A stretch of 64,000 nucleotides of DNA, taken from contig FZRB01000001.1 of the NCBI GenBank assembly GCA_900199595.1, forward strand, positions 244,819 through 308,818. The letters run 5' to 3'. The position numbers and the translations under genes were made by a program. The DNA comes from Lachnospiraceae bacterium (GTDB lineage: Bacteria > Bacillota > Clostridia > Lachnospirales > Lachnospiraceae). Under the pieces are notes generated by a model. The model worked only from the letters and a program-made list of their open reading frames with translations. It was not told the origin of the DNA and did no database searches. Shown in pieces: positions 1,841 to 63,927 of this stretch (its first letter is position 1; every line of letters begins with the position of its first letter).

Positions 1841-4800
1841 ATGTTGATAAAAGATATGTTTTTAAAAGATATAGACCGTGATATCAATGGGGTTATCAAG
1901 GTTGGTCAGAAAGACAGAGAAAATGTATTTCAGGAGTTGGATGAGTATGTTGTTACTGAAGAACTTGAAAAATACATGAATCGTCTTTTCGATGCATACA
2001 TTAAGGGATTAGAGGGCAGAACCGATAAGATGGGAATCTGGATTTCTGGTTTCTTTGGTAGTGGTAAGTCACATTTCTTAAAGATAATGTCATATATCTT
2101 ATCAGATAAAGTTGTTGAGGATGAATCAGGTAAATCTTATAAGGCGTCAGAATTCTTCTTAGATGGGATAAAAATTCCTGACGTAGGTTTACAGGAAAAG
2201 CTAAAGAAGGTTGTGTCATATAGTGAAGACACCGATGTGATTCTTTTTAATATAGATTCCAAAAGTGCAGCCAATTCAAGATCAGATAAAGAAGCAATCA
2301 AAGATGTATTCATGAAAGTGTTTAATGATTATCTTGGTTATTGTGGCGCCCTTCCTTTCCTCGCTGATTTTGAGAGAAAACTAGATCTCGATGGAAATTA
2401 CGATGACTTTAAAGAAAAATTTGAAGAGATCAATGGTGCAAGCTGGATTGATTCAAGAGAAGATTTTTATTTCATTCAGGATGAACTTGTTGAGACTATA
2501 TCAAGTCTTGGAATAATGAGTGAAGAAGCTGCAAAGAACTGGGCTGAGAATGCGCAGAATTCTTATAACTTATCTATAGACCAGTTCGCTGATCATGTTA
2601 AGAAATATTGTATGAGAAAAGGTCCTAATCATCATATTGTATTCCTTGTAGATGAGATAGGTCAGTATATCGCTGATGATAGTAAGTTGATGGTTAATCT
2701 TCAGACTGTTACTGAAGAGCTTGGAATTGCTTGTCAGGGTAAGGCATGGGTGGCAGTTACAAGTCAGCAGGATATCGATTCTATAACTAAAACTATGGGA
2801 GATGACTTCTCTAAAATCCAAGGAAGATTTAATACCAGAGTTTCGCTTTCTTCCGCAGATGTTGATGAAGTTATCAGAAAAAGAATTCTGTATAAGAAGG
2901 ATGATGCGACTGAGCTGCTTAAGGAGTTATATACCAAGAATGAATTTACAATAAAGAATATAATTACCTTCAGTGAAGGCACTCCTAATATGCCTTTATA
3001 TAAGGATGCTGAGGATTTTGCTGCGGTATATCCTTTTATACCATATCAGTTTAAGCTTCTTGGGGATGTTCTTACATCCGTAAGACAATATAGTTCCAGT
3101 GGAAAGCATATGGCTGATGGTGAAAGATCTATGCTTGCACTTTTCAAAGAAGCTGCCGATTACTACAAAGAAGAAAATGAAGGCCTTATTGTTCCGTTTA
3201 ATGCTTTCTATAAGGCTATAGACGATTTTGTGGATCACACACATAGAATCGTTATATCTCAGGCTCAGAGAAATACTAGACTTGATGATTTTGACGTAGA
3301 ACTCTTAAAGGTTCTCTTCATGATAAAGCATGTTAATAGTTTTAAGGGAGATATAGAGAATCTTACTACGCTTATGGTATCTAATATCAATGAGGATGTA
3401 GTAGAGCTCAAAAAGAAGATAGAAACATCTCTCAGAAAGCTCTGTGATGAGATGCTTGTTCAGAAGAATATTGATAGATATGTATTCCTTACAAACGAAG
3501 AACAGGAAGCTGAAAATGCTATCAGAGCAACCCACATAGATAGTTCAGAGGTTGTTAATTATATTGGTCAGATCGCATTTGATGAAGTAATAGCTTTTCC
3601 TAACAGCAAATATAAATACAGCAATCGTTATCAATTCTCTTTCAACCAGATGATTGATGATAGATTCCATAAAAGCAATCAAAGTAACAGTATAACGCTT
3701 CATCTTCTTACAGCATATAGCGGCAAGGAAGATGAAATGGTTCTTAGTATGCTTTCTGCCGAGGAAAAGAGTGTGGTTGTAAGACTTTCTGATAACTATG
3801 CTTATATTACTGAGACAGAGGAAATGAAGAAGATAGAGGCGTTCCTTAATTCGCCAAATTCAAGCACGCTTACCGATTATGAAATTATATCTGCTAATAA
3901 GCGAAAAGAAAGAACGGAGAAAGCCAAGAGAATAAAAGACTATGTAAGAATGGCTCTTGAATCCGCTGAGATATATGTCAGAGGTGAAAAGCTTTCTACA
4001 AAGGCAAAGGAGGTAACAAGCAGAATAAATGAAGCCTTTGAGAAGCTGGTTGCAAGTGAATACAGCAAACTTCGTAATATGACTACTGAACCCTCACAGT
4101 CAGATATTCTGGATTATCTTAAGAAAACAAAGTCACAGATGACTTTAGATCTTGAAGGGATGATGGAAGATAATCAGGAAGCTCTTGGGGAAATGTTATC
4201 TGAAATTAAATATGCAAGTAAGATGGGAACTAAGTTTTCTATTAAGCAGGCTATGGATAAGTTCATGGCTGCACCTTACGGATATATAGAAGAGGATGTT
4301 GAGTATTTGATAGCAGTTCTTTATAAGAAGGGGCAGATAGCTCTTAAGATGAACAGTGTTGTATATACTCCAGCAAGTACAACAGCTGATGATGCATATA
4401 AGTATATTACAAAAAGAGAATACAGAGAGAAAGTTCTTGTTGAGATTAAAGAGGTCCCTAAAAATCAGTGGATTAAGTCTGTAAAGGATGTTATTAAAGA
4501 TTTCTTTGGCAAGTCAATAATGAATGATGATTCGGATGCTCTTATGAGAGATTATAAGAGTTACTGCGTATCAAAGAAGGATGAACTTCAGAATATTCTG
4601 AAAGATAATTACTGGGAAGGTTCTCCGCTTCCAGGGGAAAGTATTGTTAAAAAAGCAATTCGCCTTATTGAAGATACAGAAAAAATTGGAGATCCAATGA
4701 CATTTTATAAACAGGTAGATGATCTTTACGATGATTTTGATGAAGTATCTCTTCAGCTGGGAGATCTTACGAGTTTCCTAAATGGCGTTCAGAAAGAAAA

Positions 4801-5461
4801 GTTCCTTCGTGCCTGCGATATTCTTGATATATATGAAGCAAGTAAAAACTATATCTCAGATTCGGCTGCAGAGGGATATGCGGATGATATAAACAGAATC
4901 AAAAATATTAAAGAACCGTATAATCTGATAAATAAGATGGAAGGGTTTGCAAACTCTCTTGAAGAAGTGATAAATGATCTTCTAAAACAGGGAAAAGACT
5001 CTATAGAACCAAATGTAGAATCAGATAGATCGGTTGTTATTGAGACAATTAATAAAGAGCGTGCATATGCAGAAGCATTGCAACGCAGATTTGAAGCGAA
5101 GTTTGATGCTTTGATTCAGAAGCTTAAAAATGCAAAAGATATTGCTTCGCTTCAGGGCATATCTTTGGAAAGCAATGCTCTTATGCAAATATGTATAAAT
5201 GAGATAAATAAGGCTGAAGAAAGTTTTGTTGCAAGTCAAAAACCAGTAGATGAAGTGGCAGAAAGTCATCCTTCAGGTTTTGATAAGCCTAAGGCTGTTC
5301 CTGCAAAAGTTATTAAAACTATACCGGTTAATCTAAGACAATTAACTGGAAATAAGACATATACGATAAGAACCGAGGAAGATGTTGATGCTGCTGTCGA
5401 AGAAATACGACAAGCTCTTATGGATCAAATAGGAGAGGATAAGATTATAAAACTTAGTTAA
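1841..5461 (+). CDS. brxC: BREX P-loop ATPase BrxC
   Basis: A 1206-residue protein, the usual BrxC size. Walker A is seen early (GFFGSGKSHF, about residues 70-79), in the N-terminal position expected for BrxC/PglY. A probable Walker B is HHIVFLVDEIGQYI (about residues 264-277). The C-terminal half is long and helical and ends with a small basic/acidic domain after a proline-rich linker. BrxC is the large ATPase of BREX and is required for restriction and for PglX-dependent methylation. The ribosome site is GGGAGGG before ATG. The gene lies 15 bases after brxB and 14 bases before the KAP gene. Confidence 0.93.
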   Translation: MLIKDMFLKDIDRDINGVIKVGQKDRENVFQELDEYVVTEELEKYMNRLFDAYIKGLEGRTDKMGIWISGFFGSGKSHFLKIMSYILSDKVVEDESGKSYKASEFFLDGIKIPDVGLQEKLKKVVSYSEDTDVILFNIDSKSAANSRSDKEAIKDVFMKVFNDYLGYCGALPFLADFERKLDLDGNYDDFKEKFEEINGASWIDSREDFYFIQDELVETISSLGIMSEEAAKNWAENAQNSYNLSIDQFADHVKKYCMRKGPNHHIVFLVDEIGQYIADDSKLMVNLQTVTEELGIACQGKAWVAVTSQQDIDSITKTMGDDFSKIQGRFNTRVSLSSADVDEVIRKRILYKKDDATELLKELYTKNEFTIKNIITFSEGTPNMPLYKDAEDFAAVYPFIPYQFKLLGDVLTSVRQYSSSGKHMADGERSMLALFKEAADYYKEENEGLIVPFNAFYKAIDDFVDHTHRIVISQAQRNTRLDDFDVELLKVLFMIKHVNSFKGDIENLTTLMVSNINEDVVELKKKIETSLRKLCDEMLVQKNIDRYVFLTNEEQEAENAIRATHIDSSEVVNYIGQIAFDEVIAFPNSKYKYSNRYQFSFNQMIDDRFHKSNQSNSITLHLLTAYSGKEDEMVLSMLSAEEKSVVVRLSDNYAYITETEEMKKIEAFLNSPNSSTLTDYEIISANKRKERTEKAKRIKDYVRMALESAEIYVRGEKLSTKAKEVTSRINEAFEKLVASEYSKLRNMTTEPSQSDILDYLKKTKSQMTLDLEGMMEDNQEALGEMLSEIKYASKMGTKFSIKQAMDKFMAAPYGYIEEDVEYLIAVLYKKGQIALKMNSVVYTPASTTADDAYKYITKREYREKVLVEIKEVPKNQWIKSVKDVIKDFFGKSIMNDDSDALMRDYKSYCVSKKDELQNILKDNYWEGSPLPGESIVKKAIRLIEDTEKIGDPMTFYKQVDDLYDDFDEVSLQLGDLTSFLNGVQKEKFLRACDILDIYEASKNYISDSAAEGYADDINRIKNIKEPYNLINKMEGFANSLEEVINDLLKQGKDSIEPNVESDRSVVIETINKERAYAEALQRRFEAKFDALIQKLKNAKDIASLQGISLESNALMQICINEINKAEESFVASQKPVDEVAESHPSGFDKPKAVPAKVIKTIPVNLRQLTGNKTYTIRTEEDVDAAVEEIRQALMDQIGEDKIIKLS

Positions 5462-14320: not shown

Positions 14321-17300
14321 ATGAATACTACTGAAGTTATTAGCAAAATGAATGGGTTCATGTTCCAGCTTACGGAAAAGATGGTTACATGGATGGATAA
14401 AGTGTTACCTAGAATAACAGAAGATTGGTGGCAAGATCTTGTAATCAATAATCTTAATCAGATGCAGAAAACTAAGGTTTTTAATACCAATGTTACAGAT
14501 ATGTCAGGTCTAGATCTCGCATCACTTCTTCGTGTGTTTGATAGAAATTGGTTTGTTATATCTAATGCAACATTTGTAAATCCTCGTGTCAGAAGTGATG
14601 TTCGTGAGATGCAAGGAATAAGAAATGATTGGGCTCATATAACTCCCAAAGATATAACAAAACGAAAAGTGTTATATGATTTAAATGTAATATATAACCT
14701 TCTTCAACAATTAGATGCTTCTATGAGAGAAACATATGACATCAGTGCGTTTATTTCTGATGTTGAAGATGAAGATGAAATCCAGGTTGATACATCATTC
14801 GAAAATGCTTCAAAAGAAGCGACGCATGAAAGTGTTGTAAAAAATAGAACAGATGTGTTGAAAGCTGATAATAGTGGTTCTTCTGACATAACTATTGGAA
14901 GTGTAGTCACTCTTACAAGTGATTCTTCTGTTTCTGGTGCAGTAATAGGTATTAGTGGAAATAAGTATACAGTTTTTATAAATGGGGCTGCTCAGAGTTA
15001 TTACAAAGAGCAGATACAATTAAAACAAGATTTAGATCAAAGCAGATTTCTTCCTCTTTCGAGGGTGAGGTCTGCTTTGACTGCTTATCAGATAAATAAT
15101 CCAAGTTCAAGTAATCTATATTCGCTTAATGCCGCAAGGATTGATTTTGTTCCTTATCAGTTTAGACCGGCCCTCAAGATGATTCAGTCTGATATACCAA
15201 GAATTCTCGTTGCTGACGATGTTGGTGTAGGAAAGACCATTGAGGCAGGACTTATTTTAAAAGAGATGGAGGCTCGTTCATTACTTAGTTCTGTTCTTGT
15301 TATATGTCCTCGGCCACTTGTAGCAGAGAAGAAATGGGTTCGTGAGATGAAGCGTTTTGATGAAAACTTTTCTCAGCTTGATGGTAAAGGATTTCTTGAG
15401 TGTATCCAGGAAACTGACAGAGATGGAGAATGGCCAGATAGACATAGTAAGACTATTATTCCATATTCTTTGTTTAATGAAGATAACATAATGGGTACAA
15501 AGTCAACTTCAAACAAGAAGAGAAAGGTGCTAGGTTTATCAGAACTAGATCCACTTCCACATTTTGATCTGGTTATAGTGGATGAGGCTCATAACATAAG
15601 AAATGATAATACATGGATGTATCAGGGAGTAGAACTGTTCTGTAGAAATGCTGATGCTGTTGTATTCTTGACGGCAACGCCTTTACAAAACAGTAACAAC
15701 GATTTGTATACACTTCTTAATCTTCTCAGACCTGATCTTGTATTTGATAAAGAAACATTCAAGACAATGTCAGAACCTAATGTATATATCAATAATATGC
15801 TTAGAATAGTTCGTGCTCAGGGAGAAGATTGGCAGGAAGAATGCAGAAGAGAAATATCTAATATTCTGAATACTAGCTGGGGACGAAATGTCATCCAGCA
15901 TAATCCTGACTTTGAGAAGATATATAATTTCTTAGAGAAGACAGAAGTCAGTCGTGAAGAAAAGATAGATCTTATTAGCAAGATTGAAGGGTTACATTCA
16001 TTTAATACAATTATCAATAGAACAAGGCGCCGTGATATCGAAAACTTCTGTGTGCGTCGTAATCTTACGGTAAATGTACCGTTTACTGGAGTACAGAGAG
16101 ATTTATATGAATCTCTTATAGAGTTCCAGAGAACAGCGCTGACTATGGTTCATGGGGCTCAGAGTGTACGATTTATGATGTGTACTATCATGAGACAAGC
16201 GGCGAGCTGTATTTATGGTTTGGCTCCATTCATGAATAAGATTATTAAAAGAAATCTTGATAGATTGAATGATCAGGAAGAATTCTTTGAAGCGGATTTC
16301 CTTCTTAATACAGATGATGAGAATTATCTTCTTGAATTATCTGACGAGATAACAAAGATGGCTGAAAATCTACCAGAAGAGGATCCAAAGTTTGAGAAAC
16401 TTATGGAAGTTCTGAGAGAGAAGCAATCAGAAGAAAATAACAGGGTTATAATCTTTAGTTCATTCAGACATACATTATATTATCTTGAAAAGAATCTTAT
16501 TGCAGAAGGTTTAAGAGTCGGCAGGGTAGATGGCGATGTAAAGGATGAGGAAAGATATAAAATCAGAGAAAGATTCCTTATGGACAGGGATGAGGATGAA
16601 GCATTAGATGTAATCCTCTTCAGTGAAGTTGGATGTGAAGGCTTGGATTATCAGTTCTGCGACACCATGGTCAATTATGACCTTCCATGGAATCCGATGA
16701 GAATTGAGCAGAGAATTGGTCGTATTGATCGTAGAGGTCAGAAGAGTGAATCTGTAAAGATTTATAATATGATAACTGACGATACGATAGATGCAGTTAT
16801 ATATAACCGCTGTCTTATGAAGATAGGTGTTTTTGAGGAAAGTATAGGAGATTGTTCGGAAATCCTTGGAGATATCAGTGAAAAGATTCTTAAGATTATG
16901 TTTGATCCTGAATTAACTGAAGATGAACGACAGATGAAGATAGAAAAACTTGCTGATAATGAAGTTATGCGGGTTAATGAAATTCGTAATCTGGAGCAGC
17001 AGGAGAAGTCATTGTATGGATTTGATCTTTCAAACTATGTTCAGAATACGGAAGTACAGGAAGCTGAGAATGACTGGATATCTCCTAAGAGTATGCAGAA
17101 TCTTGTGAATCTTTATCTAGACGATTATCTCGGAGAAGGTGAATATCTGAGAGGTAAATCAGAGGAAAAGACGCTCCGACTTGCTCAGGATAAGAGGCAG
17201 TTACTTATGGATGAGTTTAAAAAGCTTAAACTCTCTACACTCAATAATGATGCTAATCGTTTATGGAAAGCATATTTGAAATCATCTAATGCAATTCTCA

Positions 17301-17920
17301 GAGTTACATTTGATAGCAATTATGCAAAAGATAACAGGGAAGCACAGTTTCTGACACAAATGCATCCGCTTGTGCTTCAGGCTGCCAAGTATGAGAGTAA
17401 GGATTTTCCGTGTGAGCTTTCTATAAGTGTAGAGGATAGTGGACTTGCTTCCGGAGATTATGAATTCCTTATATATGCATGGAGATATGTGGGACTCCGC
17501 CCAGATATTAAGCTTGTAGCTATAAGTAACAACAAGCAGGTGGAAGACAATATATTGTCTATGCTTCAGTATGGAACAGAATATAATATAAGCACCGGTA
17601 ATCATTCTTTTGCATGGGATGAGATGGATTCAGTGCATTATGAACGATGGAATGAAACAAGGAAGAAGTATGTAGCTGAAGTTCAGGCTGAGTGTGATTA
17701 TAGGTTAGAACAACTATCACATTCTATGAATCAACAGGAGGCTATAGTTAGACAGCAGTTAGAATCTGCAACAGATGAGAAGATAAAGAGAATGAGAACA
17801 TCTCAGCTCACTAACCTTCTTAACAAGGCTGAGGAGCAAAGAAAAGAAGTGTTAGACGTTGTTAATAAGATAGATATTCATACAACGCTACTTGTAAAAG
17901 GAGTATTACATATAGGGTAG
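14321..17920 (+). CDS. SNF2-type helicase with N-terminal Swt1-like HEPN domain (BrxHII position)
   Basis: A 1199-residue protein. Residues 1-145 resemble the Swt1-type HEPN domain and carry GIRNDWAH (near residue 100), an R-N-x3-H HEPN signature. The helicase core follows: ADDVGVGKTIEAGL (motif I, about 298), IVDEAHNIRND (motif II, about 420), FLTATPLQNS (motif III), and QRIGRIDRRGQ (motif VI, about 797). The C-terminal 350 residues are helical. BREX types that lack brxL carry a helicase in this place (brxHII), so I infer the same role: DNA translocation on phage DNA. The extra HEPN domain suggests an added RNA-targeting or signalling function. Ribosome site: AGGAGAAGG. Confidence 0.87.
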   Translation: MNTTEVISKMNGFMFQLTEKMVTWMDKVLPRITEDWWQDLVINNLNQMQKTKVFNTNVTDMSGLDLASLLRVFDRNWFVISNATFVNPRVRSDVREMQGIRNDWAHITPKDITKRKVLYDLNVIYNLLQQLDASMRETYDISAFISDVEDEDEIQVDTSFENASKEATHESVVKNRTDVLKADNSGSSDITIGSVVTLTSDSSVSGAVIGISGNKYTVFINGAAQSYYKEQIQLKQDLDQSRFLPLSRVRSALTAYQINNPSSSNLYSLNAARIDFVPYQFRPALKMIQSDIPRILVADDVGVGKTIEAGLILKEMEARSLLSSVLVICPRPLVAEKKWVREMKRFDENFSQLDGKGFLECIQETDRDGEWPDRHSKTIIPYSLFNEDNIMGTKSTSNKKRKVLGLSELDPLPHFDLVIVDEAHNIRNDNTWMYQGVELFCRNADAVVFLTATPLQNSNNDLYTLLNLLRPDLVFDKETFKTMSEPNVYINNMLRIVRAQGEDWQEECRREISNILNTSWGRNVIQHNPDFEKIYNFLEKTEVSREEKIDLISKIEGLHSFNTIINRTRRRDIENFCVRRNLTVNVPFTGVQRDLYESLIEFQRTALTMVHGAQSVRFMMCTIMRQAASCIYGLAPFMNKIIKRNLDRLNDQEEFFEADFLLNTDDENYLLELSDEITKMAENLPEEDPKFEKLMEVLREKQSEENNRVIIFSSFRHTLYYLEKNLIAEGLRVGRVDGDVKDEERYKIRERFLMDRDEDEALDVILFSEVGCEGLDYQFCDTMVNYDLPWNPMRIEQRIGRIDRRGQKSESVKIYNMITDDTIDAVIYNRCLMKIGVFEESIGDCSEILGDISEKILKIMFDPELTEDERQMKIEKLADNEVMRVNEIRNLEQQEKSLYGFDLSNYVQNTEVQEAENDWISPKSMQNLVNLYLDDYLGEGEYLRGKSEEKTLRLAQDKRQLLMDEFKKLKLSTLNNDANRLWKAYLKSSNAILRVTFDSNYAKDNREAQFLTQMHPLVLQAAKYESKDFPCELSISVEDSGLASGDYEFLIYAWRYVGLRPDIKLVAISNNKQVEDNILSMLQYGTEYNISTGNHSFAWDEMDSVHYERWNETRKKYVAEVQAECDYRLEQLSHSMNQQEAIVRQQLESATDEKIKRMRTSQLTNLLNKAEEQRKEVLDVVNKIDIHTTLLVKGVLHIG

Positions 17921-49445: not shown

Positions 49446-49462
49446 ATACATATCGTGAATAT

Positions 49463-49535
49463 GTTAGCAAACCCGACGAAAGTCGGCGGCGCAAAGCTAT
49501 TAGGGCCTGTAAAATGGTAGCCAGTTGCAACTAGA
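49463..49535 (+). ncRNA. Cyclic-di-GMP-I (GEMM-I) riboswitch
   Basis: The aptamer shows the class hallmarks in order: AGCAAACC, a GAAA-capped stem (CCGAC/GTCGG), GGCGCAAAGCTA, then a second stem whose 3' side reads ATGGTAGCCAGTTGC. These correspond to the P1b tetraloop and receptor and the GCAAAGC core that binds c-di-GMP. A strong promoter lies just upstream and a terminator hairpin just downstream, which is the standard layout of a transcription-control riboswitch. The first gene controlled is the helix-turn-helix protein at 49607, and probably the three-gene cassette after it. Confidence 0.9.
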
Positions 49536-61360: not shown

Positions 61361-62554
61361 ATGGCAAAAAGATATGATTCAAAAAGGCGTGTACTTCATA
61401 AAGGAGAGAGTCAGCGTGCGGATGGAATATATTTATACAGAACCACAATAGACGGAAAAAGATATGAAGTATCATCGGCTTCTCTTGCACGGCTCAGAGA
61501 AAAAGAGGAAGATATAAAAGATAAAATGGAAAAAGGCCTTGATTTAGATAAACAGAATCTTACATTAAATGACCTGGCTGCGAAGTATATAGCGGATAAG
61601 GCTAAAACAGTTCAGATTACGACATTACAAACTATAGAAACTTACTATAATAGATATGTAAGGAACGTTTTGGGCAGTAAAGAATTATCAAGTATAAAAA
61701 AATCTCACATTAAAGATCTTTATCTGGATATGGTTACCGGTGATAATAAGGTCAGCGTCTCTACAGTTATGAGACTTGATTGTATACTTAAGCCTATGCT
61801 GGAAGTTGCGGTCGACGATGATATAATCATTAAAAATCCTGCTAAGGGTGTCATGGGACAGATAAGAAGAGAAAAAGGATTTAATGGTAATAAACGTCCT
61901 TCATTAACAGAAGCGCAGCAGAAAGCGTTTGTTGATTTTATAATGACTGAACCTAAATTTGAAAATATCAGAAATATTTTAATCTTCTTACTTGGTACCG
62001 GTTGCAGAATTGGAGAAACTATCGGACTTCGGTGGGATGATGTGGATTTCCAGAATAGAGTTGTAAATATCAATCATGCAGTTGGATATGTAATAGTAGA
62101 TGGGCATTATAGGCAATTTGTTAAAATTCCTAAGAGTGCAGCAGGTGTAAGAGAAATCCCTATGCTTGAAGAAGTGAGGGATGCTCTCATCAGGGAAAAA
62201 GAAAAGCAGGAAATTATCGGATTTAAAATGCCGGAGCTGGATGGATATACCAATTTCGTTTTTCTCACTCAAAGAGGAACTATATATAGAAGAGAAACAG
62301 TAGCTTACCAGATCAAAAGCATAGTCAAAGAGTACAATAAGACACATCAGTATGAACAGCTACCTGACTTCTGTACCCACCAGCTACGGCATACATTTGC
62401 AACAATGCTCTGTAAAAACTCCAGTGATCTAAAAGCTATACAGGAAATACTTGGTCATAAGGATATATCAACCACACTTAATACTTACGCAGATGCAACT
62501 AAGGAAGGCATAAACAAATCGATGCAGGCTATGCAGGGAGTAATGTTTAAGTAA
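61361..62554 (+). CDS. Tyrosine integrase (Tn916-type)
   Basis: A 397-residue integrase. An N-terminal arm-binding domain (KRRVLHKGESQRADGIYLYR) and SAM-like core-binding domain precede the catalytic domain. Catalytic residues seen are Arg in GTGCRIGETIGLRWDD (about 216), His and Arg in HQLRHTFATM (about 340), His in LGHKDISTT (about 366), and Tyr in LNTYADATKEG (about 375). It integrates and excises the element. It is complete and followed by a tRNA array, a common attachment target. Ribosome site: GAAGGGATG. Confidence 0.93.
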   Translation: MAKRYDSKRRVLHKGESQRADGIYLYRTTIDGKRYEVSSASLARLREKEEDIKDKMEKGLDLDKQNLTLNDLAAKYIADKAKTVQITTLQTIETYYNRYVRNVLGSKELSSIKKSHIKDLYLDMVTGDNKVSVSTVMRLDCILKPMLEVAVDDDIIIKNPAKGVMGQIRREKGFNGNKRPSLTEAQQKAFVDFIMTEPKFENIRNILIFLLGTGCRIGETIGLRWDDVDFQNRVVNINHAVGYVIVDGHYRQFVKIPKSAAGVREIPMLEEVRDALIREKEKQEIIGFKMPELDGYTNFVFLTQRGTIYRRETVAYQIKSIVKEYNKTHQYEQLPDFCTHQLRHTFATMLCKNSSDLKAIQEILGHKDISTTLNTYADATKEGINKSMQAMQGVMFK

Positions 62555-63021: not shown

Positions 63022-63094
63022 GGGGTGTTAGCTCAGTTGGGAGAGCGTCTGTTTTGCAAGCAGAAGGTCGCAGGTTCGAAGCCTGTACGCTCCA
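63022..63094 (+). tRNA. tRNA-Ala (TGC)
   Basis: Cloverleaf with acceptor GGGGTGT/ACGCTCC, D arm GCTC/GAGC, anticodon stem TCTGT/GCAGA around TTTGCAA (anticodon TGC), and T loop TTCGAAG. No CCA is encoded; discriminator A. Confidence 0.92.
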
Positions 63095-63099
63095 CTTAT

Positions 63100-63172
63100 G
63101 CCGACTTAACTCAACCGGGAGAGTGCTTCCCTTACAAGGAAGAAGTTGGGAGTTCGATTCTCTCAGTCGGTA
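63100..63172 (+). tRNA. tRNA-Val (TAC)
   Basis: Acceptor GCCGACT/AGTCGGT with a G1-U72 wobble, D stem ACTC/GAGT, anticodon stem CTTCC/GGAAG around CTTACAA (anticodon TAC), and T loop TTCGATT. Discriminator A, no encoded CCA. It starts 5 bases after tRNA-Ala. Confidence 0.9.
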
Positions 63173-63174
63173 CT

Positions 63175-63246
63175 AGACCATTAGTATAACGGATAGAATA
63201 CTTCGCTACGAACGAAGAGGTAGGGGTTCAACTCCCTTATGGTCTA
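63175..63246 (+). tRNA. tRNA-Arg (ACG)
   Basis: Acceptor AGACCAT/ATGGTCT, D stem GTAT/ATAC, anticodon stem CTTCG/CGAAG around CTACGAA (anticodon ACG), and T loop TTCAACT. Begins with A1-U72, unusual. Two bases separate it from tRNA-Val. Confidence 0.88.
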
Positions 63247-63253
63247 CTTGGCT

Positions 63254-63318
63254 ATCGATTATATAATCGATGGGCTCTTTAATAATATAGAGCGGGAGAA
63301 AACAGGCACTTCTCTCGC
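63254..63318 (+). other. Structured spacer between tRNA-Arg and tRNA-Gly
   Basis: The spacer opens with a perfect 18-bp palindrome, ATCGATTATATAATCGAT (63254-63271), then a GCTCT/AGAGC hairpin (63274-63293), then GCGGGAGA/TCTCTCGC (63292-63299 with 63311-63318). It is not a tRNA: no T loop is present. Confidence 0.5.
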
Positions 63319-63324
63319 TCACCT

Positions 63325-63396
63325 GTGGGTATCGTATAACGGTTAGTATATTTGTCTTCCAAACAAATGGTGCGAGTTCGATTCTCGCTATCCACT
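63325..63396 (+). tRNA. tRNA-Gly (TCC)
   Basis: Acceptor GTGGGTA/TATCCAC (one G-U), anticodon stem TTTGT/ACAAA around CTTCCAA (anticodon TCC), T stem GCGAG/CTCGC with loop TTCGATT. Discriminator T, no encoded CCA. Confidence 0.9.
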
Positions 63397-63409
63397 CACA
63401 ACTAAATAT

Positions 63410-63597
63410 GCTTCTATAGCTCAATTGGTAGAGCAACTGTATAGTAGTGGAGTGATGATCTGCAATTGTATCATTACTCGAAATGAAGTGTTGAAGTATT
63501 CTGTGAATCAGAATCAGGATTCAGTAAAGAATCTTACAGGTTTCTGGAGGAAATCTGGCAACGCAGGAGGTTGAGGGTTCGATCCCCTCTGGAAGCT
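63410..63597 (+). tRNA. Interrupted tRNA, Cys (GCA) or Thr if the insert is removed
   Basis: The 5' part (acceptor GCTTCTA, D stem GCTC/GAGC) and the 3' part (variable AGGTT, T arm GAGGG/CCCTC with TTCGATC, acceptor TGGAAGC, discriminator T) are a normal tRNA. Between the anticodon half-stems CTGT (63437-63440) and GCAG (63563-63566) lie 122 bases. They fold into three hairpins: 63450-63479, 63494-63535 and 63537-63557. Joining after T63442 and before G63558 gives a 7-base loop, ATGCAAC, with anticodon GCA and U33; U73 fits tRNA-Cys. A join further in would give AGT (Thr). No group I core is seen. It could be a pseudo-tRNA or an RNA scaffold. Confidence 0.65.
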
Positions 63598-63600
63598 TAG

Positions 63601-63664
63601 GTGTCTATTGGACGGATATTATTGATTGGAACGGGAGTCTATAGTTTCAGCGGACAATAGATAC
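63601..63664 (+). other. Structured spacer between the interrupted tRNA and tRNA-Asp
   Basis: GTGTCTATTG (63601-63610) pairs with CAATAGATAC (63655-63664) over 10 bp, with an inner GGAAC/GTTTC stem. It has no T loop, so it is not a tRNA. Confidence 0.5.
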
Positions 63665-63672
63665 TCCACTAT

Positions 63673-63744
63673 GGCTGTGTGGCGTAATGGTTAGCGTACC
63701 AGATTGTCTCTCTGGGGGTAAGGGTTCAATTCCCTTCATAGTCG
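63673..63744 (+). tRNA. tRNA-Asp (GTC)
   Basis: Acceptor GGCTGTG/CATAGTC (two G-U pairs), anticodon stem CCAGA/TCTGG around TTGTCTC (anticodon GTC), T arm AAGGG/CCCTT with TTCAATT. Discriminator G, as expected for tRNA-Asp. Confidence 0.9.
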
Positions 63745-63751
63745 CTTATAT

Positions 63752-63823
63752 TGGGAGTGTGGTGTAATGGCTAGCATACTAGATTTGGATTCTAGGGGAG
63801 AGGTTCGAATCCTACATTTCCAA
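63752..63823 (+). tRNA. tRNA-Pro (TGG) with a Gln-like body
   Basis: Acceptor TGGGAGT/ATTTCCA with U1-A72, a glutamine-type feature, and a D arm starting GGTGTAATGG as in tRNA-Gln. The anticodon stem CTAGA/TCTAG encloses TTTGGAT, so the anticodon is TGG (Pro), one base from TTG (Gln). The T stem has only three pairs (AGAGG/CCTAC). It may be degenerate or mischarged. Confidence 0.7.
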
Positions 63824-63824
63824 T

Positions 63825-63898
63825 CGCGGGATATTATCAAATGGAAGATAGCCGGGCCCATAACCCGGAGGTTGCCGGTTCAAATCCGGTTCCCGCTA
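63825..63898 (+). tRNA. tRNA-Met (CAT), initiator-like
   Basis: Acceptor CGCGGGA/TCCCGCT with an unpaired C1-U72, and an anticodon stem with three G-C pairs (CCGGG/CCCGG around CCCATAA). Both are initiator features. T arm GCCGG/CCGGT with TTCAAAT. The D arm is short (about GATA-containing) and irregular. Confidence 0.82.
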
Positions 63899-63927
63899 CT
63901 CAAATAATAAGAAGGAGAAATGAAACA

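Follow-up and report, generated by a model that had tools for sequence, protein, structure and literature searches.

The 188 nt at positions 63410-63597 of the window, i.e. the whole 64,000-nt stretch of Lachnospiraceae DNA analysed here, raise the question of whether a tRNA gene has gained an intron, has been broken by a mobile sequence, or has turned into something other than a decoding tRNA. The locus (L097:1465-1652) is a real tRNA gene in an accessory array of a gut bacterium, and it is interrupted. The coordinates of the preliminary description were borne out: as read from the sequence, the tRNA body is complete, with a 7-bp acceptor, a 4-bp D stem, a 5-bp T stem and U73, and about 115 nt of extra sequence lies within the anticodon loop, at approximately position 36-38. 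The gene is missed by tRNA finders at default settings, the ARAGORN and Rfam scans listing the seven neighbouring tRNAs and not this one; the Rfam tRNA model with permissive filters aligned end-to-end over the locus, insert included, with 41.8 bits (cut-off 29). The insert is structured, as had been proposed, the 188 nt folding at -61.1 kcal/mol (z -3.57) with none of 200 shuffles equally low. The interruption was probably caused by the insertion of a genus-specific palindromic repeat into the anticodon loop of a spare tRNA-Thr(UGU) gene.

Past the window, the array continues with tRNAs for Phe, Ile, Gln, Trp, Gln, Cys, Asn, Ile, Arg, Met, Lys and Lys, and a second block is located on contig C39. 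The array and the second block contain tRNAs for all amino acids except threonine, and both blocks adjoin each other in G400, a one-contig genome. The tRNA loci examined outside the array included tRNA-Thr(CGT) and tRNA-Thr(GGT), and no tRNA-Thr(TGT) was seen among them; in other genomes of the genus, tRNA-Thr(TGT) belongs to a chromosomal-looking cluster (L056, L230, L231). Units of this kind are described as dense supernumerary tRNA clusters, mainly of Firmicutes, one of which was reported to be deletable without apparent phenotype; the parts of that account drawn on here make no mention of interrupted tRNA genes (PMC5966550).

By array position and tRNA body, as judged from alignments, the interrupted gene is tRNA-Thr(UGU). 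A search with the array across 61 genus genomes gave related arrays, two of which (L031, L032) carry an intact 73-nt tRNA-Thr(TGT) with U73 between tRNA-Gly and tRNA-Asp. In a third (L037) a 72-nt tRNA-Thr(TGT) ending in C occupies the same place, and in a fourth (L033) a tRNA-Thr(TGT) with U73 adjoins tRNA-Asp close to the contig end. The window gene aligns directly with the L031, L032 and L033 orthologues, downstream spacer included, and each of its halves aligns with the same orthologous Thr gene. Since the orthologous tRNA-Thr(TGT) also has U73, this base is no pointer to cysteine here. The assignment to tRNA-Cys(GCA) made in the preliminary description had to be given up, because the orthologues are tRNA-Thr(TGT) and the GCA triplet (63558-63560) lies inside the conserved 3' end of the repeat; an intron in a tRNA-Cys gene was ruled out on the same grounds. 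Intact tRNA-Cys(GCA) genes do occur elsewhere in the genome, one in the same array (L001:2523-2592) and one on another contig (L004:984-1055). An intact anticodon TGT is absent from the interrupted gene, with AGT at the corresponding place, and relative to the L032 orthologue positions 32, 34, 38 and 39 differ and 27-43 is mismatched. The tempting reading of a tRNA-Cys intron is thereby replaced by a testable one, a genus-specific repeat in several accessory tRNA genes.

The limits of the insert were taken from a covariance model of the repeat family (R1), constructed from 19 aligned copies with the window copy left out. In a search admitting E-values up to 10, R1 produced a single match in the window, over its full length (49.1 bits, E 9.4e-11), and its boundaries (Table 1) replace the excision proposed earlier, 63443-63557. 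Joining the flanks in silico was of little help with the boundaries: when 115 nt were deleted in eight registers (starts 63442 to 63449), ARAGORN called a tRNA every time, variously as Cys GCA, Cys ACA, Ser AGA or Thr AGT, and therefore such splicing cannot pick the register. All 26 joined versions tried passed as tRNA, thus a restored tRNA is not diagnostic.

Table 1. Features of the array and of the interrupted tRNA gene, in window coordinates.
Feature	Position	Strand	Details and basis
Tn916-type tyrosine recombinase (integrase), upstream of the array	61361..62554	+	Pfam PF00589, PF02920
Window section of the accessory tRNA array: Ala, Val, Arg, Gly, interrupted Thr, Asp, Pro, Met	63022..63899	+	
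tRNA-Thr, 5' part	63410..63445	+	acceptor GCTTCTA and D arm GCTC..GAGC; alignment with tRNA-Thr(TGT) of L031, L032, L033; Rfam tRNA model
5' anticodon strand and loop, ACTGT-AT-AGT	within 63410..63445	+	alignment with tRNA-Thr(TGT) of L031, L032, L033; Rfam tRNA model
Hairpin-chain repeat copy, model positions 1-117	63446..63562	+	R1 cmsearch; ends uncertain by 1-3 nt
HP1, 10-bp stem (one G-U), 10-nt loop	63450..63479	+	sequence, MFE, model alignment
HP3, ATTCTG-tgaat-CAGAAT	63498..63514	+	sequence, model alignment
HP4, GATTC-agtaaa-GAATC	63518..63533	+	sequence, model alignment
HP5, CAGGTTTC-tggag-GAAATCTG	63537..63557	+	sequence, MFE, model alignment
TGGCAA, counterpart of the repeat's 3' end TGGCAC; holds GCA 63558-63560	63556..63561	+	model alignment
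tRNA-Thr, 3' part	63563..63597	+	3' anticodon strand GCAGG, variable loop, T arm, acceptor TGGAAGC, U73; alignment with orthologues

In group I introns the 5' exon ends in U and the insert in G, and the U|...G splice sites suggested in the preliminary description resemble this arrangement. In model R1 a 5' end after U36 is possible, and the 3' end falls at 63560-63562 (A, A, C), which removes the likeness. No Rfam intron family was found in the window at gathering scores, or in the locus at E up to 0.5. A group I intron was ruled out by the lack of an Rfam match and the wrong 3' end; the occurrence of copies in spacers is a further difference. Bacterial group I introns are also far longer than the insert. 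They are described as lying mostly in tRNA and rRNA genes (PMC3984707).

A hairpin chain similar to that of the insert lies in a tRNA-Gln(CTG) gene of L032, and it recurs in a spacer of the C39 block of this genome. The repeat unit is about 115 nt long and consists of an AGCT-like start, the hairpins HP1 to HP5, and the end TGGCACA. Loops are frequently of the GNA type closed by C-G, e.g. CGAAG and CGTAG, with CAAAG as a common variant; GNA loops closed by C-G confer extra stability in DNA. HP3, the best-conserved part of the repeat, has a GNA-type loop in at least 66 of 96 aligned rows. Where three hairpins had been described in the insert, the family has five. In the window copy HP2 is eroded, and the four others, HP1 (10 bp), HP3 (6 bp), HP4 (5 bp) and HP5 (8 bp), are in good condition; 25 of its 35 pairs are Watson-Crick, five are G-U and five are mismatched, and these ten non-Watson-Crick pairs compare with a mean of 0.82 and a maximum of three in the other 91 rows. 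It is the most divergent of the 96 rows, its nearest neighbour being 56% identical, against a median nearest-neighbour identity of 93%, some rows being duplicates. With a nearest relative this distant, membership rests on the profile and not on pairwise similarity, and the copy is to be regarded as an apparently eroded or very divergent member of the family.

Across 92 distinct rows, 36 of the 37 pairs had double-sided changes, and 98.0% of the paired cells could pair, compared with 77.5% in shuffles and 32-40% with slid partners, statistics that are favoured by an alignment fitted to the structure under test. In the 91 other rows, 3070 of 3145 scored cells were Watson-Crick and only 21 were G-U, a count that leaves out two habitually G-U pairs. 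Selected RNAs usually show G-U intermediates in their stems, and the near-absence of G-U here suggests that the palindromes may be held or renewed at the DNA level and not as a selected RNA. Searches of ten loci against Rfam at E up to 0.5 gave only tRNA-family matches overlapping the copies.

The repeat is numerous in this genome. With 150 of 1228 candidates scored, R1 identified 24 places at or above 49.1 bits, the window copy being the weakest of these, and 21 weaker places (28.7 bits or below), several of the latter overlapping a strong copy read on the other strand, which is expected of palindromes. Six near-identical copies in this genome (L081-L085, L089) have common flanks of roughly 125-150 nt upstream and 35-90 nt downstream, and the repeat thus also travels inside larger composite repeats. 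In the genus, a BLAST search with the C39 spacer gave matches in 26 of 61 genomes, and R1 with stricter filters matched 49 of the 61 at E 1e-6 or better. Outside it, none of 297 sampled genomes of other genera matched; in this search of 299 family genomes (stricter filters, 12 candidates scored per genome) only two did, both members of the genus. The exact HP4 word occurred in 13 stretches of the named genome collection, all of them in metagenome assemblies that bear the labels Lachnospiraceae, Eubacterium or Clostridia; the rumen is mentioned in one title, and eight carry RUG isolate numbers, which we take to denote rumen genomes.

Searches with the window sequence itself reached less far. 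The whole 188 nt matched 49 of 397 family genomes at E 0.01, and outside the window these matches were pieces of about 20-40 nt only, mostly of the D-arm half of the tRNA; nine matched pieces in or overlapping the insert were checked with R1, and none was a copy. With the insert alone, 15 of the 61 genus genomes matched at E 0.05, the window's own included, and of the 14 other places checked (15 in total) two were R1 copies (L230, L231). Against phage and plasmid records the interrupted gene gave 547 and three matches, respectively, none covering 80% of the query. The 20 phage matches listed covered 16-19% and mostly fell in annotated tRNA genes (Thr and Ile six each), and all three plasmid matches covered 15-17%. 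A search of viral contigs for an exact junction word gave no match.

The literature searched, on short tRNA introns, palindromic elements in tRNA genes, tRNA arrays, double-hairpin elements and Butyrivibrio or MITE repeats, yielded no account of this repeat. The interrupting sequence appears to be a new family of an ordinary kind, a small palindromic repeat specific to the genus. Among the closest parallels, as judged by size and behaviour, are the palindromic elements of Rickettsia and Wolbachia (RPE/WPE), which are presented as frequent, 100-150 bp in length and able to lie inside genes; size, palindromy, copy frequency and sites inside genes are all alike. RPEs are described within open reading frames, whereas the sites here are tRNA genes and spacers of a Lachnospiraceae genus (PMC3767692). 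Mitochondrial hairpin-forming or double-hairpin elements are portrayed as small, possibly mobile, and located in spacers, with one in an rRNA gene; in these, substitutions are in the loops and the stems are conserved, whereas here the stems vary with compensation (PMC2800124). REP sequences, the high-copy prokaryotic palindromes, are given as 20-40 bp, in contrast to the approximately 115 nt and five hairpins of the present repeat (PMC3733652).

Homologous inserts, whose absence elsewhere was to have counted against the preliminary description, were found in three other tRNA genes of sister arrays (Met, Gln, Pro). In G400 a copy is located between bases 36 and 37 of tRNA-Met(CAT), the halves are intact with no base lost, and removal of 116 nt gives a canonical 7-nt anticodon loop. 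The copy of G403 interrupts tRNA-Gln(CTG) at about 26/27, with minor base changes around it, and in G401 a copy of 50.6 bits occupies the D loop of tRNA-Pro(TGG), in which T-stem pairs seem, by eye, to have been lost. Spacers are occupied as well: a Glu-Glu spacer of C39 in this genome and, by an identical copy, in G403; Gly-Arg in G403; Leu-Leu in G400; and tRNA-Thr/tRNA-Val in L230 and L231. In the arrays scanned (L038, L039 and L042 excluded), four copies were in tRNA genes and four, at three sites, in spacers; with equal numbers, no preference for tRNA genes is indicated. One copy (L087) is nested within the HP4 loop of another, and a stretch next to L086 that is paralogous to the filled L076 site lacks the repeat and is cleanly joined.

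Orientation was surveyed in 99 copies (96 loci, a few overlapping) with respect to tRNAs within 250 nt, sense being judged by array neighbours where the interrupted tRNA itself was undetected. All four in-gene copies (Thr, Met, Gln, Pro) were sense, and all six copies with a tRNA gene on either side, at the four sites Glu-Glu, Gly-Arg, Leu-Leu and Thr-Val, were inverted, a contrast with Fisher p 0.029 (4/0 vs 0/4) in a post hoc test on few sites. Copies only near a tRNA were mixed (L056 and L094 inverted; L173, L200 and L202 sense). The contrast is as a sense-strand RNA element would show and is not predicted by blind DNA insertion; alternatively, inverted copies may have been purged from tRNA genes. 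Several copies (L147, L077, L090, L091, L095) lie, by eye, within inverted repeats. General targeting of hairpin loops was rejected: 4 of 39 copies with distinct flanks had an arm of at least 5 bp (6.3% expected), and the mean arm was 3.18 against 2.89, with 37 of 1000 permutations as high; 54 of 93 copies had been dropped for similar or short flanks. Among open frames of at least 110 codons beside the copies, no recurrent mobilising enzyme was found. Two clusters of neighbouring frames occurred in three or more loci, one ABC-type ATPase-like (six loci) and one ATPase-like (three loci), and neither, on reading, looks like a transposase.

A second contrast lies within the gene. In the acceptor, D and T arms none of 16 pairs was newly broken, as counted by eye, against the ten of 35 in the insert that are not Watson-Crick (Fisher p 0.021, or p 0.14 when one G-U common to the L032 orthologue is counted). 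Even erosion would be expected of a dead gene, and a simple dead gene does not explain this contrast. We suggest that processing enzymes still recognise the tRNA body. A spliced product would be a bolder account of the contrast, which could also arise from a repeat that was already unusual on arrival. The repeat may serve as a natural experiment on which parts of an array tRNA stay selected once decoding has been lost.

The events at the locus can be reconstructed as follows. A non-autonomous hairpin-chain repeat of about 115 nt, predicted to spread as DNA, would have entered the anticodon loop of the tRNA-Thr(UGU) gene at about position 36-38. The interrupted gene would no longer yield a decoding tRNA, a loss that the host may tolerate given the supplementary nature of the array. 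The acceptor, D and T arms may still fold, and RNase P and RNase Z may cut there, which would keep the neighbours processed. Splicing need not be invoked to account for the locus. This reading is favoured because R1, built without this copy, matches the window once and over its full length, because intact orthologues exist beside sister copies in both tRNA genes and spacers, because the site of L076 has an empty, cleanly joined counterpart, and because copies are numerous in the genome, genus-wide and missing from the 297 genomes outside; the pairing stems, with double-sided changes and hardly any G-U, point the same way. It is weakened by the orientation and erosion contrasts, by the canonical loop that removal of the copy leaves in the G400 tRNA-Met, by the missing recurrent mobilising enzyme and by the 56% identity to the nearest relative. 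A tRNA disrupted by a mobile hairpin had been one of the alternatives of the preliminary description, and it gained support from the independent covariance model and the sister copies.

The strongest competing explanation is a small removable tRNA intron of a new kind, excised by itself or by a protein, the exons being joined to tRNA-Thr(AGU). A small tRNA intron was also among the alternatives of the preliminary description; the sense orientation of all four in-gene copies speaks for it, but spacers, a D loop and the vicinity of position 26 hold copies as well. Because of the orientation contrast, more weight was given to the intron and less to the insertion of a DNA repeat than would otherwise be the case. 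Position 36-38 is close to where tRNA introns usually lie, a 73-nt tRNA with anticodon AGU results when 63446-63560 is taken out, the G400 tRNA-Met was entered without loss of a base, and the tRNA body is better kept than the insert. However, restoration is not diagnostic when ARAGORN passes every joined version. The family also resides in spacers, in the D loop of tRNA-Pro and, with local base changes, in tRNA-Gln at about 26/27. In comparison with the L032 orthologue it is the anticodon region that has changed most, the scarcity of G-U pairs speaks against selection at the RNA level, and no Rfam intron family matches. We regard such an intron as unlikely. The erosion and orientation contrasts nevertheless make an RNA test worthwhile: any copy that proved to be excised would, to our knowledge, be far smaller than the self-splicing inserts of bacterial tRNA genes. 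Gain of introns through a mobile element has been proposed for archaeal tRNA-Thr genes (PMC3293823). A related proposal is distinctly improbable: the repeat would act as a mobile element at the RNA level, a minimal intron of about 115 nt that enters loops of structured RNAs (the anticodon and D loops of tRNAs) in the sense direction and can be excised again, such that the interrupted array tRNAs stay functional.

Very improbable, too, is a functional but non-translating RNA, either a tRNA scaffold displaying hairpins or a body kept as a processing signal of the array. The intact acceptor, D and T arms next to a changed anticodon arm, and the position within a dense tRNA array, are in line with such a role, but the form is known from one genome, the contrast between tRNA body and insert is statistically weak (p 0.021 to 0.14), the interrupted tRNA-Pro of G401 seems by eye to have lost T-stem pairs, and the Thr gene is absent from the G400 array. 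An assembly or binning artefact joining unrelated tRNA halves, conceivable in a draft genome of 47 contigs, can practically be dismissed, as both halves and the downstream spacer align with one orthologous Thr gene, and the insert matches the family model over its full length, with the model ends at the junctions.

In one array of G401 (L035 ~850-1330, L256:1434-1720), four tRNAs (Arg, Asp, Phe and a Lys-like one) have inserts of another hairpin-forming sequence in their T loops. The Asp and Phe inserts share a 20-nt pattern, CTCCGGCTYGGTCGGYGCAC, which occurs in one of the 61 genus genomes, and the T-loop inserts look like a second, T-loop-specific element. In G424 a tRNA-Gln(CTG) is without its anticodon arm (L031:775-850), and in G398 a tRNA-Thr is degenerate (L038/L039:160-260); judging by these sequences, other array tRNAs are decaying too. 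A tRNA-Ile(TAT) of 89 nt with an extra-long variable region is present in three arrays (L031:543-631, L034:347-435, L041:555-643), the one in this genome's array being 74 nt. A near-threshold Clostridiales-1 RNA (43.8 bits, cut-off 48) lies in the related G400 array (L041:1413-1546). Elsewhere in the window, a BREX BrxC-like protein is encoded at 1841-5461, an SNF2-type helicase with a Swt1-like HEPN domain at 14321-17920, and a c-di-GMP-I riboswitch aptamer is located at 49456-49532 (45.7 bits).
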